Shown here: one piece after another, positions 19,289-47,718 of the stretch | Numbering within the stretch: the stretch's first letter is position 1 | How the letters are laid out: each line of letters starts with the position of its first letter | Source of the DNA: Bryum argenteum | Taxonomy: Eukaryota > Streptophyta > Bryopsida > Bryales > Bryaceae | Length of the DNA: 64,000 bases | Assembly (NCBI GenBank): GCA_037043015.1 | Contig: CM073323.1 | Span: forward strand, 124,001 to 188,000 | Reading direction: 5' to 3' | Position numbers and translations under genes: made by a program | Notes under the pieces: model-generated | The model's input: only the letters and a program-made list of their open reading frames with translations | Told to the model about the DNA's origin: nothing | The model's database searches: none

Positions 19289-19500
19289 GGACGTTACTGT
19301 GGCGTGAGCGTTGAGCGGTGAGCGCTGAATTTCAAATTTTTTAGCAAGGAAAAGTTATTAATAGTAAAAAAATTACTAAAAATATTTTTTAAATTTAAAA
19401 AACGAATATTTTCAAGAATATTTGCAAGATTCTCACCTATTACCGTGGATCTGAGTACCTATAACCGTGGAATTTATAGGCATATACTTTGGATCTTTTG
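19289..19500. repeat. Type B terminal inverted repeat of the composite element
   Basis: Reverse-complemented, this region shares with 56,180-56,359 the phrase CCACGGTAATA, an AT-rich middle with AATATTC words, the GCTCACCGCTC array, and the tip CTCACGCC(C)A(A)GTAACGTCC. The transposase stop codon lies about 230 bp inside. Confidence 0.65.
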
Positions 19501-19604
19501 TGGTGAAGACACGTTGTTCACAACAAATTGAACCGAGTTTGATCACTTGGACAATTCATCATATATCCAAAATTAGTGACGACTGTGACACGGAAAACAT
19601 GGTA

Positions 19605-19633
19605 TTCATATATATATATATATATATATATAT
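19605..19633. repeat. (TA)n microsatellite
   Basis: A run of about 14 TA units, in the 3' flank of transposase copy 1 between the type B end and the stop codon. Confidence 0.9.
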
Positions 19634-19729
19634 TAATGTTTAGATATATCGTGTTACATAATGTTTAGAGGTCTAGCCAATACGAAAAACTATAGAGAGT
19701 AAACTAGTAGATAAAGTGACTGGGGTGAA

Positions 19730-22700
19730 CTAAGAAGTAACGTGGTCTAGTACCCCCCTCTCGAGAATTGTCTTGACCTCGTTGAAACTAAGGGTAGCCG
19801 CATGCGTGAAGAGATCCATTTCGACATCTAGTTTGCAGACTGACTCTAGACTAAAGTAGAGATGCTTGCAGTTTTTATACGGGTTCCCACGTCTACCTAA
19901 CTTAGCCATTGTCTCTTTGAATGCTGGGCAATTGCATTTTGGAACGAGCTGATCGAGACTTGATAGATCGACTTGGTCGGAGGCGGTTTAGACTGCAACA
20001 TAACCATACACCCAAAACCGGGTTCGGGGATCATAGTCACCTTCAAAATGGTTGCCTTCATCGCCTTAGCAGAGTATATGTTCTTCATTTGCTTCGACGA
20101 GGCTGTCGGACATGAGCGACGGATGGTCTTGGAGTTTCGCGTCTTCGGAAAAACATCTGCGTTATCCGGTACAGGAACATTGGACAAATCACGAGGTGGA
20201 GCACCATTCGTAAACGTTTGGTTTACAGGGACACGCTCCTTTTGAGGAAGTTGAAATCCGGCATTTTTCAATGCATCAATTTCACCACGCGTGAGATTGG
20301 TCCCGATTTTCACAGGCCAAACCAAAGGGATAGGCGGTCGTTCATCCGTCTCGCTGAAGGGCTCAATCCACCTACGACGAAATCCCTTCACGCACCTCTC
20401 AATATCATCTGCACAGAAGAAGAACTCTTGTACCACCTTGCGGGGAGCTTTCTGAAGGTGGTTCCAAACTCCGGTGTAAGTTGGAGCTGGGGTGCTCCTC
20501 CCGTTTAGGACTATCCGGGCGGTACATTTCTTCCTAGTTACAGCCATCTGTGCCCAACATGCTTTAGCGGAAAGCTTTCCGACACGGGCAATATGCCATA
20601 GCTTCTCGTTCACTCGAGTCTCTTGCACGGCACTGACGCCACAAATATCAGACCCAGCGGAGCTCAAAGGTTGAGCAGGACTTTCCTCCACTTCATGTTC
20701 TTCACGAATTGTGCTCAAAGTATGAGCTCGTGCTCGAGTGACTCTAATTCCTACCTTAGGTCGGGAGAAGTTCACAGTGTCCGGTCTATGAGTTTCTTCT
20801 TCAGCGCCAATGGGAACATCTGCCTTTCGTTTCATGGAACCGAAAACCTCAGCTCCCTCGTGATGTGCATCACGAGTGCAGAACTCTTCGGCTCCAGGCA
20901 TCTCAAGGACTGCCTTGTTGAGGGAGGAAGGATCTCCAGTGCGGTGCGCACGTCGTTGGGCTGTTCAAAGTCGAAGTTCCTCCCTCGACGGTCCAGAACC
21001 ACCCGCTCCGCCTTTGAGGTACTGGTAATAAGCCACCACTTGCAAGAAGGCTCGAATGTAATCGTCCACGGCTGCAACGTATAGGTCTCCACCTTTTTTG
21101 CCCGAAGCTTGAAGCCATTTGTTGTGTACTGACTTGGCAAGATTGCAAGATGGCATCTCCGCTAACTCCTCTTGAGTGTATTGTTTTTCCTACGTTCAAG
21201 AACATCAAGTTTTGGTCACAGAGGATGAGAAAAGTCACAAGACATTTGGAAGGTAGGGGGCTCCCTCGTACACGAGGGAGCCTCCTAAATATAGATTTTT
21301 AAAAAAAAAATTAAAAAAATTGAGTAAAAAAATTTACTTTTTACCGGAGTAGTAAAAGGCATAACTCATAGAATCACGTAAGGTTGAACTTACTAGCTCC
21401 ATAAACCCCCCCCCATTGGCGATATCGAAAATGCCAGAATGCGAGCCAAAACCCCAAATGTCTCACTCCATCCTCGGAAGCAGCGCGTGAAGACGTCCAC
21501 CATGCTTTTATTCCCAAATAGCGTGTCTCAGCCTCTTCCATGGACGAGGCATTTTTATATTGAAAACACAAATGCTTGTCTTGGTCTTGTAGTTCATGGC
21601 GAATGTACTGCTTGGTGTGTTTCTCAAGCGACTGAGACCAATGGAAGAAGCACGTTCTCTCTTGTCCTTCCATGGGCACGGTAGGGTTGCCAGAACCGTA
21701 TATGATCCGGACCGCATTCCAATCGGCTTGTGCACTATCAGCCATGAAACCTTGAAACTGAGGCTCATGGACCCCATTTCTTGACATCACATGGTTCAGA
21801 TTCTTCCAAAAAACAATCTGAGCTTCTCTATCCTCGGACATAAAATCACAACAAGCAATTGTAAGTACTCGTTGGTAACTGGAGTCGTACACGTGGCACG
21901 CCATGGTCGTCCAGTGGATAACACGTTTGACGTGATCAAACATCATCCAAGCATGCTCTAGATCACTACCAGGTTGCATCCGCCGGACCAGGTCCACTCC
22001 ACTAGCAGGGCCAACTTCTGACATCTTGAAAATGAAGACTTTGTCCAAGTCATCTCCTTGCCCTGGAAACATGTTACGCTGAACAAAGGCCCAATTACTG
22101 AGCCCTCTGAGTTTGGTAATACTGTCCATGACTCCATAGCGCCTTAGATACCTGAACGTATAGACACGGTTTCTAATACTTGGAGAGTTTAGGTCTTTAC
22201 AACTATCGAACACAGGCTCTAGTTGTTTCAAAGATAGGTGGGTATGAGGCTCGTCCTCTTGACGTAAAAGGTAGTTTCCTAGAAGGTCTCTGCTGGCCTC
22301 CATAACAATCTTAGAAACAGGAGCCTGTGGATTGCGTTCGACATGTTCTTCAATCAACTCGTCAATCTTCCTCCGTGTACCTCTGTAGTCCCCAACCTTG
22401 ACAGGGTGGTCGTGATTGCCAATATGAACGCACGCACGCTCTTGGTTTTCATCACCAAAAATATAATAGATCTTAGCTTTACAAGCGGCAACGCAAATAG
22501 GAGGTTCCTTACAAATCCTGCAGACGATCGTGGATGCGGAAGGAGGTGGTCCACCAACTCCGAATGGGTCTTTAGAGGATCCATCGAACTCAACTTCGTT
22601 CACCTCTGCTGCACGCTCAGGTCTCTGCAAGAATGGACAATTCTGTTTGCGACACTGGACATGACCAACACAATTAGAAGATCTAAAAGTCAAGTTCATG

Positions 22701-23514
22701 GTGTTGGAGATGTTAGTGGTCATGGTTTTAGTCCATGAGTGTCCGTCGTAACGTTTATCCATTCCATCCATGGATTTTGCATTTTTGTTAGCAGCAGATA
22801 GAAGAACGGGTGGAAGAATAAAGAGAATGTCACCATTGAAAGATGGTGGTAAACTAACTACACGGACTGTCTGGATGTTAGCATAATCTAGTTTCTTCAG
22901 CATCGTCTTGCTACTGGGCATACTACCTAACTTGAGGAGGCAGGTGAGAATGTTTTTGGGTTTTGACGTTTGTGAGGAATGTTCTTGAGGGATAGGGGTA
23001 GACAAGTGAGATGTAGTAGACGGGGATTGAAGCGGAAGAGGAGAACAATTACTTGGAACCGAAGTGTTGCGCTCGTCATCAGATGACTCAGTAAGGTCTA
23101 TGCTAACACGTTCACATGGTTCGACCTTTATACGACGTAGAACGGGAGTGATCGTTGATAGAGTAGAGGAACTACGGGGTCGATGGGGCGATTGAAGCGA
23201 CCATTATAGATTCTCGACAATCCGTATAGGCGGTACTTGCCGGTATTAAGATCCCAAATGGCATGCTTCTCATTCACAAGCACTGGACTAGGTTCAACAA
23301 CCATGGAATACATGACGTTTAAGGTGATAGGGTCTACAACGTCCTTCTCTAACCACAAAGACGACGAATTGAACCCAAATCTAATTGATAACACTTGAGC
23401 AGTTACGCGAGCTACTCCTTGGGGGCCTGATGGTATGCATAGAGGAACTGGAGCACCGGGAGAGAGAATTTCGACAACGTTCGGACTAGTAAGCTCTGAA
23501 GACGAGGATGCCAT
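19730..23514 (-). pseudogene. MULE-like SWIM-finger transposase, copy 1
   Basis: Start at 23,514 (MASSSSELTSPNVVEILSP). The first exon runs to about 21,394 and the second from 21,189 to a stop at 19,730. Exon 1 contains the zinc-binding segment FRSSNCVGHVQCRKQNCPF, CRICKEPP and CVHIGNHDHP (GCM/FLYWCH-like). The catalytic region has MMFDHVKRV, ACHVYD, the second acidic site FMADSAQADWNAVRI and the CxxH pair in RTCFFHWSQSLEKH. Exon 2 ends in a SWIM finger, CNCP...NCKHLYF. Breaks: a frameshift near 23,180, a G-run shift near 21,412, a shift near 20,960 and one just before the SWIM cysteines (about 19,945). The central 543-codon frame is intact. It likely cut and joined DNA at the GTGAGCG-type ends. 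The MULE assignment rests on D, D, CxxH and SWIM order; I did not place the catalytic Glu. Confidence 0.7.
21255..21286. repeat. Near-perfect palindrome in the transposase intron
   Basis: Arms GGGGGCTCCCTCGT and ACGAGGGAGCCTCC around a central AC, with one mismatch. It lies in the intron between the two transposase exons. The intron of copy 2 has a related hairpin (TTTCGT-CA-ACGAAA near 54,452), and the same CTCGT...ACGAG core forms the array at 26.6-28.7 kb. Confidence 0.75.
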
Positions 23515-23768
23515 GATGATAGAACGAGGTACGACAATAGTAGAAAGGAGAATGGAAGTCTTTCTGCAGAGTATATGTATTTTGAATAGTTATTACCTCT
23601 AACCCTAGATTAGTATGAATAAAACCAGTTGTATACTCCACGTATAAAGGCTGACAGAGTAGGTTTAAAAGTTTGCTACATGACTAAAAGTAAGTCACAT
23701 TGACTTAGAATTATCCTTATTTGGTTTTTTGCAGATCACACAATGGTGTTATGTAAACGTGTAAAGTT

Positions 23769-23788
23769 GCGGCGGCCGTCATTGTCAG
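23769..23788. promoter_or_regulatory. Conserved divergent-promoter motif, copy 1
   Basis: GCGGCGGCCGTCATTGTCAG, the inverted form of the motif at 19,033 and 51,836. It lies about 255 bp upstream of the transposase start (minus) and about 340 bp upstream of the decayed small-protein gene (plus). Confidence 0.5.
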
Positions 23789-24130
23789 GAAGACGCGTAG
23801 ATATTCTTAGCGCTTTAAGCGTAAGATAGAATTTAGAATCCTATGTTAAGCCAGTAACACAGAGGATGTCAGATGTTCAAGATTGGAATGACGGGTGGTA
23901 AAAGACAACGAGATGCGGGTCGTAGATCTATTTTATTATATTTTGAAATTGAATATGAGTTCCGGGGACAATGTATATAGTAAGAGGGGAGCAAGGATTC
24001 AAAATCATTTTACCTTGAGAGCTGAAGTAGTGGGCATCTAGAGCTGTATTCTTGTTTTCTTGTGTGGTGTTCTGAGTTCTAGAGACTACATGAAGGACAT
24101 AGTTGAAATACCAGAGAGTAGTGCAGACAT

Positions 24131-24485
24131 TCAACAGAAACGGAAGAAGAAGAGAGGAGGTTTGAAGTTTAGTGGTTCTTAACAGCGCAGGCGGATGGTG
24201 TTGAGGAGGAAAGAGTCAATGTCTCAATCCAAATGCGATGGAACAAGAGAGGTGCGCGAACTTGTAGGGAATGCGGAGCGGCCGGAGCCAACCACATTCC
24301 AACTGAGGTGTATTAGACGAGCCACTAACTTAGAGAGTGTTTCAGAGATCGATGAGTATGATAAAGTAGAGGAAGATTGCGAGAAAACTATAGACGAGGT
24401 TTTCTCTACTGCTTCAAAGTATTGCACTTCCCAGAGTGATTCTCACCACGCCGAGAATGACGATGAAGACCAAGGAGTTGATTAA
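24131..24485 (+). pseudogene. Small basic protein gene, copy 1 (decayed)
   Basis: In one frame the sequence gives RKKKRGGLKFSGS followed by a stop, and then RRRMVLRRKESMS and an acidic tail ending DDEDQGVD before TAA at 24,485. This matches the N-terminal plan of the partner genes at 51.5 kb (RRGGIKFSGSK) and 18.7 kb (KKRGGTCFSNTK). The start codon and the KMR.LNLD core are not evident. It is divergent from transposase copy 1, as expected for the element. Confidence 0.45.
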
Positions 24486-25285
24486 GATGAATTGGTAATT
24501 TTTCAATTGCACATTAACTTCTCTATTTGCCTAATCTAAGTACTTATTGTTGGGTGACAAATTTTTTTATTGACATATTAAAATTTGCCCTTAATAGTTG
24601 GATAGTTTATTTGGATACTTTTTACATATTAAAAAATTGTTTCTCGTGTAAAACTATTTTGTAAACTCGATGGTATCTCGTCTTATATCAGTTATATGTG
24701 TGGGAGGATGAGGGTCTTGGAACTTTATTCTATGATGTCATGCATTATAGCATAGGCATCATATGCTTTGATTTGCCCAAACATGGGGCATCTTTTACCG
24801 TTCAAACCATTTGAAGAATAATCAACTGTAGTTTTTTATGATTTTTTTTTTACATACATACAATTTCTAGATCCATCGTAACGTCTTTCTAGTTGCAAAT
24901 TTTCGGATCCAAATGACATTGGTATTGGATGTGCAAATTAATTTTACATTGGAATAAGTGAAAAAATATATGCACTTTTAAAAGCTGGATCTTCATTATC
25001 CACCGTTACATTTTAATTTCATAATTGAGATTGCTTCCTGTAATAGATTAGTTTTAGTGGTAGATTCCTTATCCTAATAAAAAATTATAATGAATGTAGG
25101 GCATGGATTTGAATGCAAAAGTTCCAGGTTTTGACCGTTTTTTCGTTGTAAACTTTGGGACATTTTTCACCATTGAAAGGCCAATATTTGAGCCAATTTT
25201 TTTTTTTAAAAATGATTTGTTTAAGTACGAGTGTGTTTTTGGGATGAAGATGAGCAACTTCGTAGTTTATGATTTTTTGGTTGGA
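24486..25285. other. AT-rich spacer inside the composite element
   Basis: No gene recognised. Poly-A/T tracts are common. No terminal repeat of either type is visible here, which is part of the case for treating the transposase and the ParB-methyltransferase gene as one element. Confidence 0.4.
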
Positions 25286-25675: not shown

Positions 25676-25909
25676 ATGGCTGGGCCGATTGGAGGAGAGA
25701 TTCAGGTTGGAGAACGAACCCGAGTCGGAGGAGATCACGATGTTGGAGCGGGAAGGGAGGATGCAGACGTCGACGTGGTGAGCATTCAGACACAGGATTC
25801 GTTTTGGGGGCATCTAAGAACTTGTGGGAAAACTTTGCCCATTTGGATTGAAGTAGGAAGAGAGAGTATCCTCGCTAAATTGGAGACCGAGACAGACACA
25901 CAAGAAGAG
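25676..25909 (+). CDS. Putative first coding exon of the ParB-methyltransferase gene
   Basis: ATG at 25,676 opens 78 codons (MAGPIGGEIQVGERTRVGGD...) ending at a good donor, GAG|GTAAGA. The phase (0) matches the next exon at 29,428, and both are rich in acidic residues. The intron would be about 3.5 kb and holds the palindrome array and one MITE. No domain is recognised. That it belongs to the same gene as the ParB-like exons is inferred from strand, phase and position, not from homology. Confidence 0.35.
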
Positions 25910-26628: not shown

Positions 26629-27415
26629 AATTTCTACCCCTACCCTCGTGTACGAGGGAGGCTTGGAGACTTTTAAGATTCGTGGTCAGCATCTCTGAAG
26701 GGTTGACTGATCATCGTAATCGTGGTCTAGATCATCGTGATCGTGGTCTGATCATTGTGATCAACTTGTTCATCATTCTGCTGCTGTGTGGAGAAAGCCA
26801 AGTTAAGGGCTCAAGACCTTTGATGTAAGGTAGGCATTAAAATGATATCTTACCAGTCTGTAAGAATGTGAAGGACTCAGTTTCTTGATAAAGTGGGATC
26901 CAAACGCCAATTTGGTGGGAGAGTATGATGGTCGATCAACGCTCCTGTTCCTTCCTTCGTTTCTTGAGAGGTCCAGTGACGCAACAGAGATACTTCGATC
27001 TTTTGTCCATTTAGAAGCGGCCAAGCTGGAGTCCCGATGATATATGTAGACGTAAAACCTGGAGAATTCAACCAGTTCGAAGACCAGTTCGAGGACTTCG
27101 TGATCAACTTGATCAAGTTGTTCGTGTGGAACAGCGAATGAGGGGTGCCCTCGTGTACGAGGGTGGGTAAGATGTAAACCTCGTGTTTGATCTAAACCCG
27201 GGTTCTAGAATTTCTACTTCTACCCTCGTGTACGAGGGAGGCTTGGAGACTGTTAAGATTCGTGGTCAGCATCTCTGAAGGGTTAACCGATCATCGTAAT
27301 CGTAGTCTAGATGATCATAATCGTGGTCTAGATCATCGTGATTGTGGTCTGATCATTGTGATCAACTTGTTCATCATTTTGCTGTTGTGTGGAGAGAAGC
27401 CAAGTTAAGGGCTCC
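26629..27415. repeat. About 200-bp direct repeat pair
   Basis: The block beginning GGTTCTAGAATTTCTAC, containing TACCCTCGTGTACGAGGGAG, ATCATCGTAATCGT words and a GTGTGGAGA...AGCCAAGTTAAGGGCTC tail, occurs at about 26,629-26,815 and again at about 27,204-27,414 with high identity. Within each block ATCATCGTGATCGTGGTC is itself reiterated. Confidence 0.75.
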
Positions 27416-28703
27416 CTCGTGTACGATGGTAGTCAAGCGGTTGTTTCTGATGATCATCGTGTTCAAGTTCTTCGTGATTTTGTGATGATCATCGTGTTCA
27501 AGGTCCCCCGATATTTGTTCTTCGTGATGATCATCCTGTTCAAGTTCCCCCGAAATTGTGATTTTGGTGGTGGTCAACAGAACACCCTGGATTCATGAAC
27601 TTGTACGTGTACCCTCGTACACGAGGGAGTGTTGGACGCTGGTCATCGTCTACTCGTCTTCATGACATGAGGGCATGGTCAGCAATAAAAGGTGGTGATA
27701 CTGTTAATAATTGTGATCGTTTTCATCTACTCATCTTCGTGTTTTTGTTGATCTGGTCGTGAAATTTCGTGGTAACTTCGAGTGAAGGGGTGCCCTCGCG
27801 TACGAGTGTGGGATCAAATGGTTGCTGCTATGTGGGAAATCAGAATTTGAGGGCTTCCTCGTGTACGAGGATGCCCACACATATGTTTCTGCTTGTCTGA
27901 TCCTTTCATGCTGACGGTCTGATTAATGAATGGGGCATGAGCTCGTGTACGAGGATTTCCAGGGAATCGGGTACTGGTCTTTGTGATGCTGTTTATTTTC
28001 TTGATTTTGTCAAGCAGACATGAGGGTGGTCAAACCAGGGTGACCTCGTATACGAGGTTGTAGTAATGGGAGTCATATCTGCTACTATTTAATCTTCATT
28101 ATGCTCTCAAAATCTTAAATCTTCTAAATTTAGGATATTCTTGTAGTTCATTATGATTAAATTGACCATTCTTGCAAATTATTGTAGTTTTTGGTGCATT
28201 CATTTCGTTCCATTGTTTTTGAGGTAAGGTAGGCATTAAAATGTTTCTCTATTGAACCGATTTTGATTATACTTCGTTTACAAAGAAGGATAGCAAATAG
28301 AGTTTCGACGGGTGCCTCGTGTATGAGGTTGGGTAAAGAATTCGGTTGTTGATCATATTTTTGTCTATTCTTTTGATTACATTTTGGGCATGGGCATTGT
28401 GCTCAGCGTTTTTTTTTTTTTGGCAACAAACTGACAGATTCCCTTTGCTGTCAAACATGGGTTAGGTCATATTCTGGAAGGAAGATATGTTACTGGCCAA
28501 GAGGGGAATCTGGCGAACGAAAAAAGAAGCCCTGATTGTGCTTAAGCATCTCTCCACTTATGGTAGGGATCCTCGTATACAAGGGTGGGAGGGAGTCTAA
28601 ACCAGTTAGATCAAAAGTTTGTAAATGTTGGTAACCATTTGAAACAATGGGCTTTGGAATTGGGCATCACTCCACTTGTGGTAGGTACCCTCGTATACGA
28701 GGG
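26643..28703. repeat. Array of CCTCGTGTACGAGG palindromes
   Basis: At least twelve copies of the palindromic core CTCGT-GT/AT/AC-ACGAG occur at about 26,643, 27,148, 27,223, 27,416, 27,611, 27,791, 27,857, 27,941, 28,043, 28,314, 28,571 and 28,687, spaced roughly 65-500 bp. The dyad is kept while the centre varies (GT, AC, AT). Further copies lie at 21,261 and 47,326, all inside the composite element. The array lies in the inferred intron upstream of the ParB-like exons. It may be a protein-binding array. Confidence 0.7.
28404..28534. mobile_element. hAT-like MITE, copy 2 (inverted)
   Basis: A 131-bp element, the reverse complement of the MITE at 25,445 with only a few differences, flanked by the perfect 8-bp duplication ATTGTGCT (28,396-28,403 and 28,535-28,542). 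The near identity of the two copies suggests recent movement. Confidence 0.88.
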
Positions 28704-29427
28704 TGGGCGTATATAGGAGAAAATTTCAGCCAACTTTGATCATTATAATCTCACAAATGAAGAAAAATCAACGGTTCATATTTGAGATGTGAGTAGAATG
28801 CCAAGTTCAATTTCAGATCCTACGGTTAAATCTTCTAAATAATTTTTAGATTGGGATTCTTTAAGCCTAAAGTAGAAGAAGGTCAAATTTTGTGTGTTAG
28901 ATTATTTTGCATCAAGAAAATGGTAGGGGCTAAACTAGTTAGATCAAGAGTTTGTAAATGTGGAAAATCGTTTGAAATAATTGAAATTAATTATCATAGG
29001 CTTCTACGGAAGTGGGTTTGCTAAACGGTTTATGTTTGAAATAATGTGCATTTCCAATTGTCATAGAAAGAACCTCAAACTCTTAATTGAATCTCCAGTA
29101 TGATATTCGATGCTTATTTGTTTGGGTAGGTGGCATGTTGGGCAAGTGGGTAAAATCTGGCTTTCCTTGGGCTCAACTATGCGTACAATGTTTCTATAGT
29201 GGTTTTGAATGTTCTCTTGTTTGTAAAGTTTCCGATACCTACTATTTGAATCTTTGAGTCCTAGAAGAAATATTTAGTAGATATGTTACTCTACATTCTT
29301 GAGCTCGAAATTCAACCATCTCTTTTTGTTTCAGTCTGAACATGGTTTAATTTGTTGTGTGAATTATTCTTTTTTGCCAGTGTGCACTCATGATTATTAC
29401 TAAAACTCTATTTTTTTTTGGGTGCAG

Positions 29428-29754
29428 GAGTTCTCTGCGGATAGCATAGATCATGTCATTGAGTCTGACACTGATAGTAGTGATTTTGATGGATCAAGTC
29501 AGCATTTTCAAAAATGGATTGGAGACCGTACCGTTGTCTTAGGTTTACCTGCGACGATCATTGCTATGGCTGAGCCCTCTAATGGGGATTCTTTTCCTCG
29601 TTCCAATGTTACATCATCCAATATTGTTGACAAGGAGGATCATGCTCTATATATGAGAGAATGGCGATGTCATACACATGAGAAGAGACTAGAAGCTCGA
29701 GATGCGGCCCGTTTAGCCCCTAGACGGTCTCCTAGTTTAACATCTTTTACTTAA
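29428..29754 (+). CDS. Putative second exon of the ParB-methyltransferase gene
   Basis: After the acceptor GGTGCAG the frame reads EFSADSIDHVIESDTDSSD and later EDHALYMREWRCHTHEKRLEARDAARLAPRR, ending at a stop at 29,754. The middle is Ser/Asn-rich and the end basic. A donor that would join it in phase to the next exon at 29,931 is not obvious, so the real 3' edge is unknown. No domain recognised. Confidence 0.35.
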   Translation, partial: EFSADSIDHVIESDTDSSDFDGSSQHFQKWIGDRTVVLGLPATIIAMAEPSNGDSFPRSNVTSSNIVDKEDHALYMREWRCHTHEKRLEARDAARLAPRRSPSLTSFT

Positions 29755-31107: not shown

Positions 31108-31152
31108 GTAATCATTTTAAGTATTGTTCTTCCAAATACTGCTTATGACTAT

Positions 31153-34576: not shown

Positions 34577-34588
34577 TGTAAAAATTTT

Positions 34589-36641: not shown

Positions 36642-37517
36642 TTGGGAGACATGACCGATGAAGAGGAGCAGGGGCGAAAGATTTTGAGGACGGAATCAGC
36701 CGGCCGGACAGTGAAGTTCAATGACGTCCCCATTGTGATTAGTCCTCGATTGAGGGTGGACGAATACGACATAGTCCAGGACATTAAGGATCAGATGGCG
36801 AACGTCACATTTGGACAATTGCTGCATGATAATATCAATTATCAAAAGCTGCTCAAGGACGCTTGGACGAAGAAGCGTCAACGACGGATCAAACTTCCGG
36901 CCGTGGCGACCGTAAACTACACAGGGACAGAAGATCATGGAGCTCCCGAAATTGAAGTGGAAGTGGAGGGCTGCATGATCAAGAAAGTTCCAGTGGACGG
37001 GGGATCCGGTGTCAACATAATGCTAGAAGGCACCGCACACGAACTCGGCTTCACAAATTTCGAGCCAACCAAACAAGTACTCAGAATGGCTGATCAGACG
37101 AGGGTGATTCCAGTAGGACGGCTATCACTAGTACCCGTCCGAATCAGCAAGTTCACGTACTTGCTCAACTTCGTCATCATCAGGGTCGGTATTGGGCAAC
37201 CGTTCCCCATTCTGTTGGGAAGGCCGTGGCTGTACTTGTCCAAAGCACTTGTTGACTGGGGAGCAAGAGAGTTCGTCATCGGCAAGCCGTCCGTAAGGAT
37301 TCCTTGGGAAACAGTCTCTAAGATGGGGGAGACGGCTAGCTCGGACGGGTACACGACCGACTGGTCAGGACCGGAGGAGGAAGACAATGAAGTTTCTAGC
37401 TATTTTGTCAGCCCAATTGACAGGCTGACAGAGGACGACCTGAAGTTCCCGTACCCGGTCGTAAATGAGGAAGAAGCCAACACGGCCGAGGTCGTGTATC
37501 AACCAACAGAGAGATGA
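36642..37517 (+). CDS. Pol: retroviral-type aspartic protease region
   Basis: The active-site strand reads VPVDGGSGVNIM, a D-G-G-S variant common in plant gypsy proteases. It is followed by the second lobe signature FPILLGRPWLY. Upstream is an acidic leader. It lies between gag and reverse transcriptase and ends at a stop at 37,517, so the joining to RT is broken or needs a frame change. Confidence 0.78.
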   Translation: MGDMTDEEEQGRKILRTESAGRTVKFNDVPIVISPRLRVDEYDIVQDIKDQMANVTFGQLLHDNINYQKLLKDAWTKKRQRRIKLPAVATVNYTGTEDHGAPEIEVEVEGCMIKKVPVDGGSGVNIMLEGTAHELGFTNFEPTKQVLRMADQTRVIPVGRLSLVPVRISKFTYLLNFVIIRVGIGQPFPILLGRPWLYLSKALVDWGAREFVIGKPSVRIPWETVSKMGETASSDGYTTDWSGPEEEDNEVSSYFVSPIDRLTEDDLKFPYPVVNEEEANTAEVVYQPTER

Positions 37518-37548
37518 TAGGTCGCTGGGAGAAGCAAGCGTCGATTGA

Positions 37549-39441
37549 TTGATCGCAAAATGGGTTCGACAGCAAATATCGGACGGCCTTCTACCACCAG
37601 TTCGGTTGAGCATTGGCAAAGTAGGACGGAAATGGTCCGATCTGCTACCAGATCCAGAAGAAGCAGCAGTGGATAAGGTAAAACCCATTGTCAATCCGAA
37701 TAATTACGAGAAGACGGAAGTGATGGAGGGGAAATCCTTCTTCTTGGGCAAGTCAATGATGGGAGAGGAGAGAACTGCGTACATAGAGACATTAAGGGAA
37801 TACCAGGACGTATTCGCCTGGGCGCCATCTGACCTCAGGGGTATTCCGGCCTGGTTGGGGGAGCATCGAATAGATCTCGAGGACGGAGCAACTCCGGTGA
37901 GGCAGAGGCAGTACCGGCTAAATCCGAAGTACTCACTCATGGTGAAGGACGAGATCGACAAACTCCTCGAGGCCGGATTCATCTATCCGGTCGACAACTC
38001 CGAGTGGGTGTCACCAATCGTCGTGGTGCCAAAGAAGGTTGGAGCGGACGGAAAAGTCAAAATACGGGTGTGCCAGGACTTCCGCAAGTTAAACGCAGCA
38101 ACTAAGAAGGACCACTTCCCGATTCCATTCACGGACATCATCCTGGATCATGTAGCAGGACGGGAATACTACAGTTTCCTGGACGGATTCTCAGGGTACA
38201 ACCAGGTCGTAATCAGGAAGGAGGATCAGCTGAAGACAACGTTCACAACGGAGTGGGGGACGTTTGCATTCAATCGCATGCCATTTGGGTTATGCAATGC
38301 ACCAGGGACGTTTCAGCGCCTCATGATGGACATCTTCAGAGACTTTCTTCGACACTTCCTAGAGGTGTTCATAGACGACTTTGCGCCTCTTGACTCAAGG
38401 ACGGATCACCTCGGCCTACCTACGGAGGACGTTTGAGAGATGCGAGAAACAGGTGCTGAAGCTCCATCCGGGTAAGTGTTTCTTCGAATGCTATCCGGCC
38501 TGTTGCTTGGACATGTGGTCACCGGAAGGAATCCAAGTGGACATTGACAAGGTCGGGGCAATACTCGTGACCGGTGGCACCAACAAATGTGAAAGAAGTA
38601 CGAGGGTTCCTAGGTTGCGTGGGGTACTACAGGGCGTTTCATCCATAGCTACGCAGAATCGGCAACACCTCTCACGGAGAGTCACTGAAAAAGGAAACAG
38701 AGTTCACCGGACGGACGTCCGACAGACGCCGAGAAACTCAAGCCGAGGCTCACTTCAAAGACCCGTCCTCTCAACTCCGGGATCGGGACAAGCCGTTCCA
38801 TGTCACGCTTGATGCATCCGGTGGTGTGTAGGGGCAATACTGGCAAAGCGGGAGACGACAAGAAGGAGTATCCGATCTACTATGCAAGCCGGCAGATGAG
38901 TCCGGCCGAGCGTAAGTATACCACTACAGAGCGTGAGGCTTTGGCCGTAGTGTATGCTTGCAAGAAATTCAGGCATTACCTGCTTGGGTACCATGTGATC
39001 TTCCATACTGACCATGACTCATTAAAGTACTTGGTCAACAAGCCGGATTTGTCAGGACGGATTGCAAGGTGGATTCTCCTCCTCCAGGAATTCAACTACG
39101 AGGTCAAGGTGAAAGCCGGGAAGGCCAACGTTAATGCCGACTTCCTCTCCAGACAGCGAGGCAAAGAAGCAGTTTCCGACCTCCGGGCAGAGTTTCCAGA
39201 CGAGTTCTTGCAGGAGGACGGATTGGTAAACGTACACAGCGTACAGGACGAGCACAAATCCGAATTCCAGCAAACAATCGATTTCCTCACACAACAGAAG
39301 TACCCGGACGGGATGACAAGAGAAGAGAAGAGCGTGTTCGTGCATCAAATAGCCCCTTTTACTATGATCGATGGGGTGTTGTTCAAGATGGGTGCAGATG
39401 AGGTCTTTGCGCGTCGTCAAGGCAAAAACAAGAACAAATGA
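37549..39441 (+). pseudogene. Pol: reverse transcriptase and RNase H (frameshifted)
   Basis: RT motifs: QRQYRLNPKYSLMVKDEID, WVSPIVVVPKK, RVCQDFRKLNAATKKDHFP, YSFLDGFSGYNQ, FNRMPFGLCNAPGTFQRLM and the catalytic box VFIDDF (FIDD for YVDD). The frame shifts near 38,385 and again near 38,815. RNase H resumes with YYASRQMSPAERKYTTTEREALAVV-type sequence, HTDHDSLKYL and the ADFLSRQRG end. The thumb/connection part (38,430-38,800) is readable only in pieces. Confidence 0.82.
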
Positions 39442-40536
39442 TCCGAGAGCTGCATTCCGGACCGTCCGGGGGACACTTAGCAGCAGTGTCAATCATCGGC
39501 CGGATACGACAGGCCGGATACTGGTGGCCGAGACTCGTACGAGACGTCAAGAAGTACGTGTCATCATCGCGACCGATGCGCCAGACGGGTGCACCATCCT
39601 TCAGAATCACCGGCCGCTAACTCAATCATCCCTCTAGCACCGTTTGAGAAATCGGGCATTGACTTCATCGCCCCCATCATCCGGTCACCGTTCGCAACGG
39701 AGGTACATAATTCTCGCCACGGACTATGCAACCAAATGGGTGGAGGCAAAGGCAACAGACGGAATGACGCCAGACGGCCGCACGCTTTCTTTTTTGAAAA
39801 CATCATGATGCGCTTTGGAGCACCGAGCCGAGTGGTGAGTGATCGAGGACTTCATTTCCTCAATGATGTCATCAAAAACATAACGGAGAAGTACTACATC
39901 AAGCATCGCAAAACAACCCCGTACAACCCACGAGCAAACGGCCTCACGGAGCGTGCAAACGGCATTGTGGGCAAGATGTTGAACAAGATGGTTTCAGCTC
40001 ACAAGACGGATTGGGACCAGAAGCTCCCTTCGGCCGTACACGCATACAACACGGTCCAGAAAAAGACGACGGGTAAGTCGCCCTATTTTCTCGTGTTTGG
40101 ACAAGAAGTGTTGCATGGCATAGAAATGGAGGTGGAGACGTACAGGGTGCTCGCAACCCGATCCGGCCTCCAGGTTGAGAATCCGGAAACCAGACTGCTG
40201 GCCATTGAGGATATGGAAGAAGCAAGGAGGGACGCATTAGAGCAAACGTACGCGGTACAGACAAAGCGCAAGTCGGATCATGACGGCCGGATTCAAAACG
40301 ACCACAAAATCCGACCGGGAGGACTAGTACTGTTGTATGACAACCGCCATAAAGAATTTCCGGGCAAGCTTCACACGAGATGGATGGGTCCCTACCGCGT
40401 ACAGGACGTCTACGCAAACGGCTCGTTGCAGTTAGCCGACCTGGCCGGAAACCAGATGGATACACGCGTGAACGGATCGAGGGTCAAGAAATACAACGCT
40501 GAAAGTTTTTCGGACGGAAGTTCGGAATACAGCTAA
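39438..40536 (+). pseudogene. Pol: integrase (frameshifted)
   Basis: The zinc-binding N-terminus keeps HSGPSGGHLAAVS and the GYWWPRL strand, but the two cysteines expected near 39,560-39,580 are not readable in frame. The core keeps GIDFIAP, a frameshift around the first catalytic Asp (near 39,715), then RVVSDRGLHF (second Asp) and NGLTERANG (Glu). The C-terminus has RWMGPYRV, a GPY/F-like module, and no chromodomain. Stop at 40,536, 25 bp before the polypurine tract. Confidence 0.8.
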
Positions 40537-40561
40537 GTGTTCGCGAGGACGCTTCACAATT

Positions 40562-40571
40562 GAAAAGGGGG
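40562..40571 (+). promoter_or_regulatory. Polypurine tract
   Basis: GAAAAGGGGG directly upstream of the 3' LTR (starts 40,575), at the expected position for plus-strand priming. Confidence 0.82.
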
Positions 40572-40574
40572 TAA

Positions 40575-43500
40575 TGTCGGACCCCGTTTTTTTCGATTTT
40601 TGGCCATTATGTTCTAATGCGCATTAAGAATAAGTATAGTGTTTAGAATCCGACCTATGTATTTGTTAAGCCGTATACTTTAAGACAATTACGTTTTTAC
40701 AAATAAAGGACTTAGCTAAAATCTAGTTTCTGTTAAGTAGGACGGATTTGCCAATCCGTACTCTGTCCCCGTACGGCTAGGACGTGCTGTCAGAGGACGG
40801 ATTAGGAGTTATGATGGTAGGTAAAGGACGGAGTGGCGAAGAATATAATAAATAGCGAGAAATCTAGAAGGCGGCCCCCGCACGGGAAGTACAATGATGG
40901 CGGCGGACCATGTCATGATGGTCGGACTTAACTCCGCCCTCGATATATAAGGCAACCCGTCCGCCTTTGCCGCCACCGCCTCCTCGTTTTTCTGCGCCCC
41001 TTGTCGTCTTGCGCCCGCCCTCCGTCTTTTCGCTTTCCGTCCTTAGCCGCGATCCGCCCACCGGCCGACCTTAGCCCGCGACACTCTATTTCCTTGCGCA
41101 CTTCTTTCCGATGGCCGGGACGGCTTCCACTTCCGCTCGGGAGCGGGAGGAGCAAGATCTCCATCAAGCTCGTGTCACCATGCATTCCGATCGAGGAGGA
41201 CGAAAAAAAGTCCTTGACGGAAGATCTCGAAAGGATGGGATTAGCCGGCTCGCTTGAGATACGCCCGGGGTTTGCGCGACGCGAGATGGTGCGCGAGATC
41301 AAGGTCGGCGCGCCAAACCAGATTCGAGGGGACGGTTAGAGGAAAGCCGGCTTCCTGGACGGCCGAAAGACTGAGAGTCATTTACGGCCCGATCAGAACA
41401 ACGGAGTAGGGTTGTGCGGCCGGAAACACAAGTGGGCGAAGAAGGCGTTCCACGAGATCCGCACAAGCACAACGGCTACTCAATAGAAGATTGTAAGAAT
41501 CCGAGGGAGCGCGCCGTCATCAAGTTCTTGGCGCCGATTATTCACGGGAGAAGCCGCACCGCATCACCGTCGGCCGGCCAACACCGTCCCCGGGTTCCTT
41601 GCGTGGCGAACGAGAGACGGATCGGGGATGATCATCCGCGACTTGGTCGCCCGGCTTATGGAGAACGTAGGTAAAACCCGTCCTAGCCCTATTACTCCTT
41701 TTCTTTACCACCCAACAAGAAGGAGGAGGAGGTGCTGACGGATGAGGAGGAGTCGAACTATGAGATCGCTACTGTCGTCGCAAAACAACGGCGTATTCGA
41801 ATCGGAGGAGAGTACGGATAGCAAGGCCGTGTACTCGGATGAGGAGGAGGACGAGGTCGGATCGATGAAGGGGACGTTCCACCCGACGCACTGTAAGAGC
41901 CGGCTCGGAGGCAACCCCACCACGAGCGAGCGTCAGGTAATCATCCTTCCGTCCCCCCCGTCCCCTCCCACGAATCCGACCGAGGCCGGAACTCGGGACG
42001 AGGAGGCCACCTTGAGGCCGGTAGATGAAGGGGAAGTTACGGCCGATTGGGAGAACCCCATGAATCGAACGACCCCGACTTCCCCACTTCTCGGTCCGTC
42101 CGCCAATCACCCGGATCCCATGAGGCGAGCATGGCACCACTTCACGGAAGCCAGTGCCGCATTTCCTCTACCAAGAAATGTTTGGCGAAGCTATGCCAAG
42201 AATTTGGAGTGAAGACGTTCTTTGGAGGTCAAGGCGAAGTGGGATTCCAAGCGGACGCGGAGCAATTTCGACAAATGGAGAAGCAAGTGACCAAGCTGGT
42301 CCTGAGAATAGACGGCTTCGCGAGACGGTCGGAGAAGGGAGGAGGAACTCCTGTCGGAAGGCGGCCCGTAATCACGGCAAACGAACAGTCGTGAAGCTCG
42401 TAGAAATCTGCGAGGTTCCGGCCGAGGTGTCTTCAGAGGGCGAACTTGTTCGAGGCCGGAATTTTGGAGTCGGAGGTTTTCAAGGCGGAGACATTCAAGA
42501 AGTTCCTCTTGGCGGCGAAGACGTACGCTACGAAAGTGGAGAAGAGCAACGCCGAGGTCAAGGTGTTGCTCGACGCCGTCCGAGAGCGATGAAGGAGGTA
42601 GTGATGCCGCCTTCACTTCTACTCCGGCCAAGACTCCGCGGCGGATACAAAGAGGGACGGATCTTTGGGCCGTCGATCCGACCGACCGAAGGGCAAGGCG
42701 AAGGTGAAGACGGAGTCGGATGCACCCGCCCCAGCTCTCGCGGCCAAGAATACGCGCACCGCGAAGAGGAAGCTCACGGCCGAGGAATACGAGAAGTCCC
42801 CTGAGCGCGAAAGCTTCACGACATCGGCCTCGAGCATTCCGAAGAGGAAGAGTTGAAGAGCGGGGACGAGACTAACTCCAGCGAGGACGAGTACGTGATC
42901 ACCGACACGGGCAAGAGGGTGAAGGCGGGGCGTATCGCGCCGACGCCATCAAGCGGCCAAGCACGGAGTTAGTTCGCGAAGGAAGAGGTAGGACGTCTTA
43001 GAGGACGGGCCACGCGGGACGGCCAGGGTTAGGAGGCCGGATTGGTATCCGTCCTAGGCAGTATAGTGTTTTCTTTTTGGGAATGCGTGCCGCTTTTTGA
43101 GGAGTAGGCCTGGTAGGCCGGCGCCGCAATCCAGTTAGGGATCTAAGTCGTTGACTTAGAAGTACTTATAGGTGGAAGTTTGGCCACCTAAAACATTCCT
43201 TGCTTGAGTGTTAATCAAACCTTCTTATGCGCATATTTGGTGTGATCATTTCCCTGTCTCCTTTTCAGTTGAGTGCTTGGAAAGCCGGATCTACTATGTG
43301 TGTTGTAAGTTGGGAGTTAGGAATCCGGATTCCTTGTTAGATCGTTTCTGTGGAGTTGAAGTCGGGTTGGGCGTATTCTTGAGTGCCTTGTGTCTTGAAC
43401 TGGTCTAGGCGTCTGAGAGAGGAAAACTACTGTGGTAAGCACTTACGGTCTGGAAGGTTCTGGGAGTACAGTGTGTGAGGACGGATTCCAATCCGGCTTC

Positions 43501-43988
43501 CAGCTTGCCACAGACTTGGGTTCCTCTGTAGTCTCGGAGGACGGATCAAGTGCGATGACGTGACCGAATACGTGTAGACGTCTTCTAGCCGGATTCGAGC
43601 TCTTGGAGTCCGTCATTGTAGTAAGGGTGATAGGGTAACCAGACGGCTGCGTGACTGCTAGTTCGAACGGATAGGACGGATTAGTTGTGAGGACGTAATG
43701 TGTGCCTTAGTGTGTGTGTGTGTGTGTAGAGTCTAAGTGTGGAAGTTTCCGCCACGATAAACATAAGGGAAAGAGTCTTTGTGCATCCCCTCTTGCAAAG
43801 GGATACCCTTGCCCTGCAAGGCTAAAACATAAGTTGGGACTAGGAAACGGTTGTGGGTTTGGGTGTTCTAGCACTACTTGTCTTGGTCACTTCACAGAAT
43901 CCCTGGAACGATACACGAGTCACCTGAACACGGGTTTTACACCAATAAACGTGTAAGGGAAGATAAAGTGAATACATGGCATCCGACA
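40575..43988 (+). repeat. 3' LTR of the gypsy element
   Basis: 3,414 bp. It carries the same coding region as the 5' LTR at about 41,139-43,000, with many 1-2 nt differences, mostly next to CAG or CTG triplets. The last 700 bp match the 5' LTR closely apart from the stretch corresponding to 34,010-34,260. Its TATA and start site are not assigned. Confidence 0.92.
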
Positions 43989-44040
43989 ACTATGGTCCAA
44001 TGTTATGTAATTTATACTGTGTGTTTTTCGTAATTTACAG

Positions 44041-47000
44041 AGAGACATTTCTCGGGCTCAAGACCTTGCTGCAAAGGTTTACAAGGAGACCACTGCTAAA
44101 GAGAAGCAAACCGGACACGGGGTGTGGTTGGCTATGCATCATGCGCAACAAAAGACCATCAAGATCTTAAAGGGTCGAAATTTTGAGGAAAATTTATCGC
44201 GGTGGCTAATCCACATAATGGCCCGAAGTTCTTCGACGAGGTACGTATAATATATCATTGCTTTCTATTTGATCATCTGGAAGTTGATAATTGACGTGAG
44301 TTATGTCTTATTCAGATTACTACACACTACTCGACTTTTCCAGTAGCCGAGTTGTCAATTGAGCGACTTCAAAATATTGCTACATCTCATGTTGAGTCGA
44401 AATTCAAGGCGAAGTGGCTGTCTTGGTGGAATAGCACGGATAATGAAAGACAGCTTGTGTGTTTTCCTTTGGATCGTCCAATGAAAGAGAAAACCTTTGA
44501 TGCCCGGATTCAGAAGGCTTCTTTTTGGGCACAAGTATGCATGCTGTCTGATTAAACTTGTGCTTTGGGTTGTTCGAATCTTTGAAACTATATCATGATT
44601 TAATTCTCATTTATGCAATTCACAATCGTTTTTGCAGTTGGAGTTCGAACTCGTACAAGAGTTTAATAAGATCCTCGAAAATCACGCTATGCCTATTGTG
44701 TGGAAAGTCGACGTTCTTCCTCCATCCGCTTACGTAGAGCATTGGAGGGTGACCCTTTGGGATCACGCATACCTTGCATATCTCGCACCAACTGGAGGCC
44801 CAAAGTTTGTCAAAGTAACCGATTTAAAGACGTTCGAGAATGGCATGTTGATCATCAAACTCCTGGTCTATAGGTATTATATCCTAAACCGCTTACTTAT
44901 TTATTTGCTACTTATTAATAATTAGTTTTCTAAACCATTTTTTTTTTCAGGTACTTTACCCGCCAGTTGATGGCCAAAGGTGCTCTTTGTTTGTCTTCTC
45001 TTCTCGAGTTTCTGAGGGATGCTCGTGATAAAGACTCCAAACATAACGCATTCACTCCTCGCCAGTACGAGAGGTTCTCAACAGGAGCCCTCAAGACTGG
45101 AGCTTGGTTTTTGGACTGCTCGGCCCCGTTTGTTCCTACGGAGGAGCAAGATCTTGCAGTGTCAATGGGCATCGTCTCTGCACCTCAAGCTCGTATCGAC
45201 ATTGAAGACGACAATGATGCAGGAGACTTCGTCGACTATATGCCTAACCGTGCTCCTAAAGTTGGGAAGAAATGTGCTCAAGTGCCAGCAAGATCACGAC
45301 CTGCAGCCATGAACGCACCTATTGCTCAAGATGGTCCTTCGTCACAAGCTGAATCTGGTCCTTCCCTTACTCAAGCAAGTGAACGTCTTGGTGACAGTGT
45401 TGGCTTGCCATCCGAGGCCACGAAATTTAATCGGCTTGTTCGTGGTCGCGATATGGTGCGTCCTGACTTGTCTGAGAAAATCTCTGCTAACGTATCTACT
45501 TTGCCCATATTCCTCGAGCACGGAGACATGGGTGAGGTTTTGAACATGAGCGACACTAATTCCCGCATGGAACCTCAAGCGGTACGCATTATGCAGCATA
45601 TTCGTAAGGTAAACCCATATTCTCATAATTTCATATTGTTTCCAATGTCCCTCTCTAATCGTGGTGATTTTATGACACTAATAATTGTTACACTTTATCG
45701 TCCAGGTTGGGAAAGGTCGTGATAAGCCTGTTCAAAACATGACTATGAAGCCCAAACATCCCGGCATTGACCTAATCATCGCTGATGCACCTGAAAACCT
45801 CACCGTGCCTCTCATGGAACCACACGTTGTACCCATGTGGAACATGCGAGATGACGATTATTTCGATAACGTATTCGCATTTGCAGATGCGAATCTAACG
45901 GATGATGGGGTTATACTTCTCATGCACCCAAGGGATAGGGCCATTGAACGAGAGTTGGACGAGTGCACGTATAGTTACCAGTTCAAGATTGTTCGTGACT
46001 GGTGGGGTTATAACCCACTTCGTTTGACATCCGCGTTGTACTCTGATAGAACGGTAAATCTACAGTGTTTATATTTCTATATGTTTTCTCCGTTCAATTT
46101 GATAGATTGTAATGTGGTTTTCTAATCGCCCAATTGGATTATGTAGACTCAGAACTTCCACATCAAGGTCTTTGCAAGAAAGGATGCAAAGTTTGAAATA
46201 AAGAGATCGAATGGTCTATGGGGGCAGCTCGACATTCTCCCGGACGACAATGACAACTTAACCAACTTCACCCACGCCGAAGACCAGTTGTTACGCCCAG
46301 ATGGGAAACCGTGGCGCGGCGCTCGGGAGAAGCATCCAGATTTCATCCAGTGTTTTATCGAGTGCTTGACCGACGAGAATGACATCGTATTTTATTGGAG
46401 TGTTTCTACAGGTATGTGGTTTATGTCAAGATTGAGGATAAATGTGATCAAGTGATTTATACTAACACTTGCTCGCATTGTTTTTGTACAGGAGCTTCCG
46501 TTATCGCATGCAAACGAACGAATCGTTTTCTCATTGGCTTGGAGCGAGATGAGGAAATCTTCGCGACAGTCTTGAAACCGATGTTAGAGCAATCGCAAAG
46601 TCGGCTTAATGCAAGCTCATCCAGAGATCATACGGAGGATGTGGAGCCTAGGAGGAAGAAACCTCGCAAGTACATGGGTGCGTTATACCTTCACTTTGTA
46701 TTCAAATTTTTATGACGCTTTTGTCATCGGAAATTTCTTAACTTCACTTTGGAATCTAGTCACGCAGGATTGACTCGGAGATTATCTCTCCATTCGGATC
46801 TCATTCGGAGTCCTCCATCGCCATTTGCGCTTCCCTCGTATGCTGAGCGACTTGCCGAGCAGTGGGTGGCAACTCCATCTCCGATTCATGCTGAAGCCCA
46901 GCGACCGAAGTTTCCTCAGAGTATTTTGCGCTTCATCGATTTTGAAGCTGACCAATGTGATGAAGAATTTGACATGCCCACGATAGCGACCATTCTCTTG

Positions 47001-47048
47001 ATTACTATTGAACTTAGCCTTCATATATCTTTTGGCAACAATATTTGA
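44041..47048 (+). CDS. Beta-class DNA methyltransferase-like gene, copy 2 (C-terminal half)
   Basis: Eight exons: 44041-44240, 44316-44534, 44638-44873, 44951-45608, 45706-46053, 46147-46411, 46492-46677, 46768-47048; phases agree throughout except exon 1, which is 1 nt short (200 bp), with a frame break near 44,190. Exon 5 has HPGIDLIIADAPENL in the position of catalytic motif IV (normally DPPY/F/W), then LTDDGVILLMHPRDRAI and FKIVRDWWGYNPL. Exons 6-7 join to IVFYWSVSTG-ASVIA and NRFLIGLERDEEIF, like motif I of N6/N4 amino-methyltransferases. IV-before-I is the beta-class order. A basic KKPRK patch and a Ser/Pro-rich tail follow. Upstream exons with the ParB-like domain are separated by the gypsy insertion. 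The altered motif IV makes activity uncertain; a DNA-binding or divergent catalytic role is possible. Confidence 0.68.
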
Positions 47049-47317
47049 TATTTTCGTATTCGTATGTTTTCAACTCATTTATGAGTTACTATTATTTATT
47101 TATACATATTGGCGTATTGGTCATATATTAAACCGTTTCAATTCCAATTACCATGTCTAAATCGCTCTTATATTTTTTTAATCACGCCAAATCAACTTTG
47201 TTGTTTAAGTAAGTCATTGTATATAAGACTCCGTTTGTATTAAGTAAGTTTCTGAGGTAATTGAGATTTTGAAACCATAATATGTAAATCGAACAATTTT
47301 TTTTTTAATCTATTTTT

Positions 47318-47348
47318 AGGGGGTTCCTCATGTACGAGGAAGCCCCCT
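47318..47348. repeat. Hairpin palindrome, CTCATGTACGAG core
   Basis: AGGGGGTTCCTCATGTACGA and its partner AGGAAGCCCCCT form an imperfect dyad closely related to the one at 21,255. It lies between the methyltransferase stop and the right end of the element. Confidence 0.7.
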
Positions 47349-47564
47349 GCATCCGACAATTATATCAACTTCTCTCGCCCTTTACGACTTTTACTTTTGC
47401 GAGAGAAACCCTAAACCTCCTAAACCTCCAAAGTAATGACGTTTGTGATGATGTCAGCCCTAACTTATGTATAGTGCATCCAAAATCTAAACAAATGTGA
47501 CTTAATTCTACGGGTTTAGGAGCATTTGTTTCATAACCCTATACCAAAATTTTAGTTTTATATA

Positions 47565-47718
47565 CCCTAAACCGTGGTAATAGGATACTTAATGTTCGTA
47601 AATTCGGGGGGATTTTTTTGAGAATTTTCTCACCGCTCACCGCTCACCGCTCACAGCTCACCGCTCACCGCTCACAGCTCACCGCTCACCGCTCACCGCT
47701 CACGCCTGTGCATTCCCC
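47565..47718. repeat. Type A terminal inverted repeat
   Basis: ACCGTGGTAATAGG is followed by a G/T-rich spacer, then about ten GCTCACC(G/A) units and the tip CTCACGCCTGTGCATTCCCC. It mirrors the left end of the element at 10,904 (GGGGAATGCACGGGTGTGAG). Confidence 0.7.

Follow-up and report, generated by a model that had tools for sequence, protein, structure and literature searches.

The locus considered here raises the question of whether a single DNA transposon of the moss Bryum argenteum carries, together with its transposase, a protein with ParB-like and methyltransferase-like parts, and what such a cargo protein might do for the element that encodes it. The window, the whole stretch of 64,000 nucleotides analyzed (C3:124,001-188,000; contig CM073323.1 of assembly GCA_037043015.1), holds one copy of this element at 19,289-47,718. 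The reading that we favor, and hold with moderate confidence, is that the cargo would be a dimeric self-recognition protein that sits on family-specific palindromes and marks copies of its own family, its methyltransferase fold serving for binding or structure and not as an ordinary methylase.

One element with paired ends

The window copy is organized around the following features, which confirm the gene order given by a first-pass annotation of the window (transposase on the minus strand, then a small basic protein and the ParB-like and methyltransferase-like exons on the plus strand).

19,289-19,324, plus strand: A end, where subterminal repeats of the GTGAGCG type come after the terminal GGACGTTACTGTGGC (placed by the duplication boundary in other copies)
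19,730-23,514, minus strand: transposase gene, exon 1 at 21,394-23,514 and exon 2 at 19,730-21,189 (exon boundaries set by eye)
24,090-24,485, plus strand: small basic protein (KRKKKRGG), broken by a stop in the window copy (from the map of open reading frames, ORFs)
31,153-43,988 (12,836 bp), plus strand: nested Ty3-type long terminal repeat (LTR) retroelement that interrupts a cargo-gene intron and does not belong to the transposon (5-bp duplication ACTAT on both sides)
47,634-47,718, minus strand: B end, GCTCACC/CGCTCAC array followed by GCCTGTGCATTCCCC (from genome matches)

The array shared by the two ends, as first claimed for 19,289 and 47,718, is readily recovered: the window contains 17 GTGAGCG motifs where 5.5 would be expected, and 14 of these 17 lie at the proposed ends of the element and of a related fragment (10,919-10,939, 17,768-17,802, 19,304-19,324 and 47,634-47,703). 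Across the 258.8-Mb genome, the A end has at least 36 matches at 90% identity or more, and the B end at least about 35 long matches; both counts are lower bounds, as 40 of 334 candidates were scored for end A and 40 of 84 for end B. A B end was found downstream in the same orientation within 20 kb of 18 of the 36 A ends, at a spacing of 13.9-17.5 kb (25 of 36 when pairing is allowed up to 40 kb), whereas a control with the B strands flipped gave no pair within 20 kb. Moreover, a cargo exon lies between A and B in 16 of the 18 pairs.

Ten of the 18 paired copies were fetched whole, and all ten are collinear with the window element on both the transposase and the cargo sides. Full-length copies between an A and a B end, with a duplication of constant length, are what the first-pass annotation had expected of a real element, and a 10-bp target duplication indeed flanks 10 of 12 window-family copies (the ten whole copies plus two known by their ends; two of the duplications have one mismatch, and the two additional copies and the mismatches were judged by eye). 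Copy L021 shows no target duplication, copy L017 has lost its terminal B bases, and about 1.3 kb of the cargo is deleted in copy L019. The window copy likewise has no target duplication flanking 19,289 and 47,718, and may therefore be recombinant; it is also broken, with stops and frameshifts in both transposase and cargo. The earlier picture of a single element of about 15 kb stands with respect to length, as removal of the retroelement and one copy of its duplication leaves 15,589 bp collinear with the other copies, but the interval as delimited is split by the foreign 12.8-kb retroelement (LTRs 95.7% identical).

A second, diverged family has the same layout. Specifically, its representative D1 (loci L039, L037 and L038; C1:25.12-25.15 Mb) holds an A end, transposase, basic protein, small gene, cargo and B end within a perfect 10-bp target duplication, GTTATCTGGG, and is 61-72% identical to the window family in the transposase and 37-47% in the cargo, by segment. 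The D1 ends gave 645 and 529 first-look candidates (40 scored each), and 9 of the 40 listed A ends have a listed B end within 20 kb. Neither of these D1 genes is intact: the cargo has one stop and a probable frameshift, and in the transposase exon 1 carries a stop close to its end and exon 2 changes frame. Two fragments noted in the first pass proved to be real, one a cargo gene of this second family and the other a transposase.

10,904-17,817, minus strand: second-family element that has cargo alone between the two types of end (83% identity with D1 across about 4.1 kb)
50,743-56,359, plus strand: transposase fragment with an A-type end at 56,359 (68% identical over the transposase core), comprising a transposase at about 52,045-55,966 (plus) and a basic protein at 51,177-51,476 (minus)

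No target duplication was seen at the 10,904-17,817 element. A search for a clean family with cargo alone or transposase alone led to this element, which is itself cargo-only, yet its relative D1 holds both halves. Taken together, the collinear copies, the paired ends, the 10-bp duplications and the second family with the same layout establish that transposase, small basic protein and ParB/methyltransferase-like cargo are one transposon unit. The two halves, which might instead have always occurred separately, were found together in all ten whole copies and in the second family; since D1 has the gene order of the window family, both ends and the duplication, transposase and cargo move as a pair in two diverged families, alongside a derivative with cargo alone.

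Within the window family, two subfamilies (the window copy with L017, and nine others) diverge by about 1-5% in the transposase half (19,289-24,530) and by about 2-12% in the cargo half (28,500-47,718). Given this unequal divergence, recombination, for example, may have given the two halves separate histories.

The cargo gene and its selection

The cargo gene lies on the plus strand, opposite the transposase, and runs from 29,931 to about 47,011.

29,931-31,107, plus strand: ParB-like exons 29,931-30,820 and 30,914-31,107, with a stop at about 30,584 in the window copy (from homologues)
44,041-45,608, plus strand: middle cargo exons 44,041-44,240, 44,316-44,534, 44,638-44,873 and 44,951-45,608, with a frameshift near 44,185
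45,706-47,011, plus strand: methyltransferase-like exons 45,706-46,053 (motif IV, DAPEN), 46,147-46,411 (where motif I begins), 46,492-46,677 and 46,768 to about 47,011

From their splice sites and phases, exons 3-12 are predicted to encode one protein, of about 1145 residues in the majority reading of 11 copies. Exon-end stretches (46,030-46,070, near 31,070 and near 25,680) vary strongly among copies, within conserved surroundings. Outside Bryum, two cargo homologues were found in Ceratodon purpureus, with identities of 43 and 41% across 71-72% of the query (the sole matches among 8000 candidates scored), and the ParB-like exon is present in a third Ceratodon protein. A cargo exon gave 27 pattern matches in viral contigs, none of which was confirmed.

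The cargo is under purifying selection, with ratios of non-synonymous to synonymous substitution rates (dN/dS) of 0.1-0.3. Between the window subfamilies the ratio is 0.29 over 1081 codons (54 non-synonymous and 52 synonymous changes), and comparison of D1 with a C9 copy gives 0.10 for the ParB exon. For exon 9 it is 0.099 in 55 pairs of 11 D1-like copies, a set from which 12 of 23 sequences were left out as belonging to other groups or incomplete, and whose copies are mostly open matches, which favors low values. Exon 10 is full in two copies only, with no synonymous change and hence no dN/dS. Among matches to exon 9, 137 of 150 scored (of 921 candidates) have no stop. These values bear on the view that the element captured the cargo as a passenger that does nothing for it, in the manner of a Pack-MULE (a class of Mutator-like element, MULE). 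Plant MULEs are known to capture genes (PMC12477816), but the ratios already point to a sustained low dN/dS, and the cargo occurs both in two families at 37-47% identity and in Ceratodon, so that a mere passenger is highly improbable.

Family-specific palindromes

All 11 window-family copies carry a 14-bp palindrome of 6-2-6 form, CCTCGTNNACGAGG, at 9-13 sites per copy (at most one mismatch); the window has 13 sites against 0.03 expected.

26,644-28,702, no strand: 11 clustered sites of CCTCGTNNACGAGG, each with no more than one mismatch, within the long cargo-gene intron (from a pattern count)
21,264-21,277, no strand: palindrome CCTCGT-AC-ACGAGG in the transposase intron
47,326-47,339, no strand: palindrome near the B end, with one mismatch

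Genome-wide, there are 341 exact sites against 14 for a reversed control pattern. The 40-bp flanks of the sites are only 0.35-0.36 identical (random, 0.29-0.30) while the arms are at 0.94-1.00 in the five copies tested, and the sites are thus mostly separate rather than copies of one repeat unit; the exception is one near-duplicate pair (0.93) in two of the five copies.

The other families have palindromes of their own. In D1, the corresponding intron and the neighborhood of the A end together carry 22 sites of CTTCGGNNCCGAAG (at most two mismatches); the genome holds 25 against 8 for the control, 12 of the 25 in D1 and a sister copy at C1:37.52 Mb. A third form, TTTCGTNNACGAAA, was seen in 1.9 kb of the intron of a C9 copy, at one exact site and at another with a single unpaired position, and the 50,743-56,359 fragment has one such site in its transposase intron. 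It is found 464 times genome-wide against 32 for the control, and of 50 listed sites 19 are upstream of a known cargo exon at a distance of 13 kb or less, with none downstream and a random mean of 1.1. These three enriched forms share TCG-N4-CGA. The palindrome of the fragment is placed as follows.

54,453: palindrome TTTCGTCAACGAAA, within the intron of the fragment's transposase

The long intron of D1 (L037:1-3300) consists of tandem repeats at about 117-bp spacing whose units hold the palindrome, and that of the C9 copy (L062) has longer repeat units with the palindrome within.

Two other explanations of these sites deserve weight. The first is that they are transposase or host-factor sites, or small-RNA hairpins, and have no connection with the ParB-like protein. 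Hairpins can arise from perfect palindromes, but the site differs by family, and 48 of the 50 listed CCTCGTNNACGAGG sites are confined to the window family, within five A-B intervals totalling 116 kb. Moreover, the central dinucleotide is variable, a pattern that fits a dimer contacting the arms, and we consider sites unrelated to the cargo to be unlikely. The second explanation is that cargo and palindromes together serve transposition, with the cargo as a cofactor that loads the transposase or pairs the ends, in the manner of MURB-type accessory proteins. The transposase intron holds a palindrome in 10 of 11 copies, all 11 have one close to the B end, and cargo is present in all ten whole copies (in part only in L019), as such a role would have it. 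Most palindromes, however, lie in the middle of the element and not at its ends, and the terminal arrays have another sequence (GTGAGCG). A role in transposition is therefore a possibility that we rate as rather doubtful.

The ParB-like and methyltransferase-like parts

The ParB-like exons have 80 homologues, and an alignment of 46 sequences (the two own exons plus 44 of the 80 matches) defines a core IPLCRL..P.VRP..DV..L...F..GYR followed by EGNHR..AW. Twelve of the 46 members match PHROG 1033, a ParB-like partition protein (best E 0.0021), the next family being matched by three. A comparison of the ParB exon with phages gave no match, and Protein Data Bank searches with the ParB exons and with the ParB-like profile A4 gave no meaningful one. 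Locus L061 missed the ParB exon. A candidate gene of the ParB-methyltransferase fusion type, as announced in the first pass, lies in the element, but the ParB identity of its N-terminal exons rests on weak matches and is best described as likely but unproven.

With respect to the C-terminal part, the cargo is alignable with the beta-class N6/N4 methyltransferases DpnA (E 4.8e-4), CcrM and MboIIA, with which it shares a core and the placement of motif IV before motif I, and it matches the Pfam N6_N4_Mtase profile at E 9e-6 (26.2 bits, just under the cutoff of 26.7). Single exons of the window copy gave no useful Pfam match. The Ceratodon proteins match the Pfam methyltransferase profile at E 0.0024 and 0.034, one matches the PHROG 3008 DNA methyltransferase family at E 2.5e-5, and a phage adenine methyltransferase was matched over 240 residues at E 0.03. 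Fold, motif order and these matches are what would be expected if the cargo had N6-adenine or N4-cytosine DNA methyltransferase activity and used it to mark the transposon that encodes it, a role suggested for a protein of Ectocarpus.

The catalytic motifs point the other way. We surveyed 23 sequences (20 fetched loci, D1, the window copy and the fragment), in 20 of which motif IV was readable. Motif IV reads DAPE in 15 of the 20, DVPE in two, and DVPD, DAPK and DASE in one each, and DAPE in both Ceratodon proteins; DPPY, which DpnA and CcrM have at this place, is found in none of the 20, and the catalytic (D/N/S)PP(Y/F/W) is thus absent from the sequences read. In the alignment with DpnA, GIDLIIADAPENLTV of the cargo faces KVDAIITDPPYNISV. 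Motif I, DxFxGSG in the known enzymes, is replaced by DWSxSTG, with the pattern DWSxS(T/A)G in 15 of 23 sequences (YWSVSTG in the window copy, DWSVSTG in the majority reading). The alteration is stable across distant families and not the outcome of random decay. Because motif IV is altered, an ordinary methylase is less likely, and the cargo is probably not an ordinary methyltransferase; an active, self-marking enzyme seems improbable to us. The "DNA-modifying" protein of the first-pass annotation thus fits poorly with a catalytic motif that is changed in every one of the 20 sequences read.

Proposed function of the cargo

Three known systems bear on what the cargo might do. In PMC12477816, the giant Ectocarpus transposon Sola1-1_Ec32 is described as carrying, on the strand opposite its transposase, a 1104-residue protein with ParB-like and N4/N6-methyltransferase parts, which its authors suggest binds and marks its own DNA. 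By that description it is likewise a large DNA transposon with cargo opposite the transposase, but it belongs to Sola1, whereas the Bryum element has another transposase, a 10-bp duplication, a land-plant host, altered motifs, two extra small genes and palindromes. The Arabidopsis elements VANDAL21 and VANDAL6 encode VANC anti-silencing proteins, which bring about loss of methylation in trans. Their targets, as described in PMC10398659, are short, family-divergent motifs repeated in non-coding regions of the element; these too are, as described, plant transposons with a transposase and a DNA-binding cargo, the function being putative in our case. Finally, VirB is an anti-silencer of the ParB superfamily that offsets transcriptional silencing from a palindromic 'parS-like' site, according to PMC10653881. 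ParB itself binds parS as a CTP-dependent clamp. The ParB/parS and VirB systems use a palindromic site, of which the Bryum palindromes would be candidate counterparts, and EGNHR of the cargo may correspond to their GxRR box (by eye); they are, as described there, bacterial, whereas in Bryum the ParB assignment is weak and no ParA gene was seen in the element.

The element is thus a plant DNA transposon, about 14-17 kb long and flanked by a 10-bp duplication, whose products are a transposase, two small proteins and the large ParB-like/methyltransferase-like protein. On the self-recognition reading, this large protein, as a dimer, would bind the family-specific 14-bp palindromes in the long intron of its own gene and, in the window family, also the one within the transposase intron and the one next to the B end. 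Binding would mark copies of the cargo's own family, and such marking would most likely keep these copies expressed or mobile against host silencing, or tune the cargo's own expression, with the methyltransferase fold acting as a binding or structural module and not as an ordinary DNA amino-methylase. A selected cargo with family-specific palindromes in its own intron resembles VANC, and ParB or VirB with parS-like sites. We consider self-recognition the likeliest role; the cargo may also affect silencing. In a more specific form that we put forward tentatively, this would be a one-protein self-recognition system of the ParB/parS type, without ParA, in which a ParB-like protein fused to a catalytically altered methyltransferase fold binds the palindromes, protein and site co-diverge, each family recognizes only itself, and anti-silencing is sequence specific.

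Several observations weigh against self-recognition. The palindrome binder could instead be the transposase, one of the small proteins or a host factor. Sites at window positions are shared by other copies (12 of 12 in L017, 7-10 per copy in the nine others) and are thus partly inherited rather than independently kept, and the D1 palindromes ride in tandem repeats (flank identity 0.52). The form CTTCGTNNACGAAG is not in excess genome-wide (42 against 49), and the 10,904-17,817 fragment has no 6-2-6 cluster. Pfam ParB matches none of the 46 aligned members, and profile comparison (hhalign) with SopB, N15 ParB and PifC was negative, at a probability of 0.3%. No fully intact copy was present among the copies read, and constraint is not visible in transposase exon 1 between the window subfamilies (9 non-synonymous and 2 synonymous changes, ratio 1.27).

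Placement of the transposase

The window transposase is damaged by a frameshift near 23,200 and a stop near 20,965. The related core at 52,557-54,116 has 249 homologues at E ≤1e-3, and when the window fragment is aligned with 32 of the 120 homologues listed, giving 33 sequences, D395 and D461, 66 apart, are invariant, and C490 and H493 (CxxH) nearly so; they are candidates for the DDE residues and CxxH expected of MULEs. By eye, the N- and C-termini appear zinc-finger-like, and the CxxH lies between acidic residues. Between the window subfamilies, exon 2 shows 2 non-synonymous and 4 synonymous changes (0.15), which are small counts.

The "MULE-like" label of the first-pass annotation holds in part. 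MULE target duplications are 8-11 bp, and the Bryum element resembles MuDR and other Mutator-like elements in its 10-bp duplication and its large transposase with zinc-finger-like termini and CxxH. However, MULE profiles match none of the 33 transposase sequences, and the ends are short unequal repeats with 7-bp arrays. Transposase_mut (PF00872) matched one of the 33 at E 0.18, the SWIM finger PF04434, expected at the C-terminus of MULE transposases, matched D1 at E 0.38 (10.8 bits, under the cutoff of 19.6), and Protein Data Bank searches with the transposase core and profile A2 gave no meaningful match. As duplication and layout fit and no profile does, we call the element MULE-like and do not assign it as a MULE member.

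Small genes and neighboring sequence

In three other copies, the basic-protein region has weak similarity (E 2e-4 to 7e-3) to the ORF for a basic protein in D1 and at 18,361-18,792. The latter, a further basic-protein ORF on the minus strand outside the element, is 59% identical to that of D1 over 111 residues. The second small gene, 'ac', is absent from the gene list of the first-pass annotation.

25,676-25,909, plus strand: first exon of the small 'ac' gene (79 codons in the majority reading, phase 0; same phase in D1)
29,428-29,754, plus strand: second exon of 'ac', ending in a stop, with a basic C-terminus (from the copy alignment)

The second exon is 39% identical in D1 over 95 columns. 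In both families, exon 1 is in phase 0 and is followed by the stop-ending exon and then by the ParB-like exon, also in phase 0. Because exon 1 and the ParB-like exon agree in this phase, exon 1 may be spliced to either following exon, and the product would be short or long accordingly.

Just outside the B end, 47,719-48,089 consists of 106-bp tandem repeats with CTTCGTCAACGAAC/G palindromes, possibly the intron of another family's cargo gene. D1 lies inside or beside another repeated gene, with ORFs containing GHTHEDIDA(L/M)FGRW on both sides (L039:1233-2027 and L038); this gene is perhaps itself a mobile element.

Significance

A ParB-methyltransferase cargo of a transposon was already reported from Ectocarpus; new here are the family palindromes. 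The open-licence literature yielded no report of such a cargo in a land plant, nor of palindromes with such a cargo. The Ectocarpus proposal of a self-marking cargo names no target site in the available text (PMC12477816), and the palindromes described here offer a candidate. With two diverged families in one genome and hundreds of first-look candidate copies, binding to own versus sister palindromes is directly testable. If the self-recognition reading is true, plants, algae and bacteria would share, or would have converged on, the same kind of self-recognition, and mobile DNA would have reused a methyltransferase fold without its usual catalytic motif.

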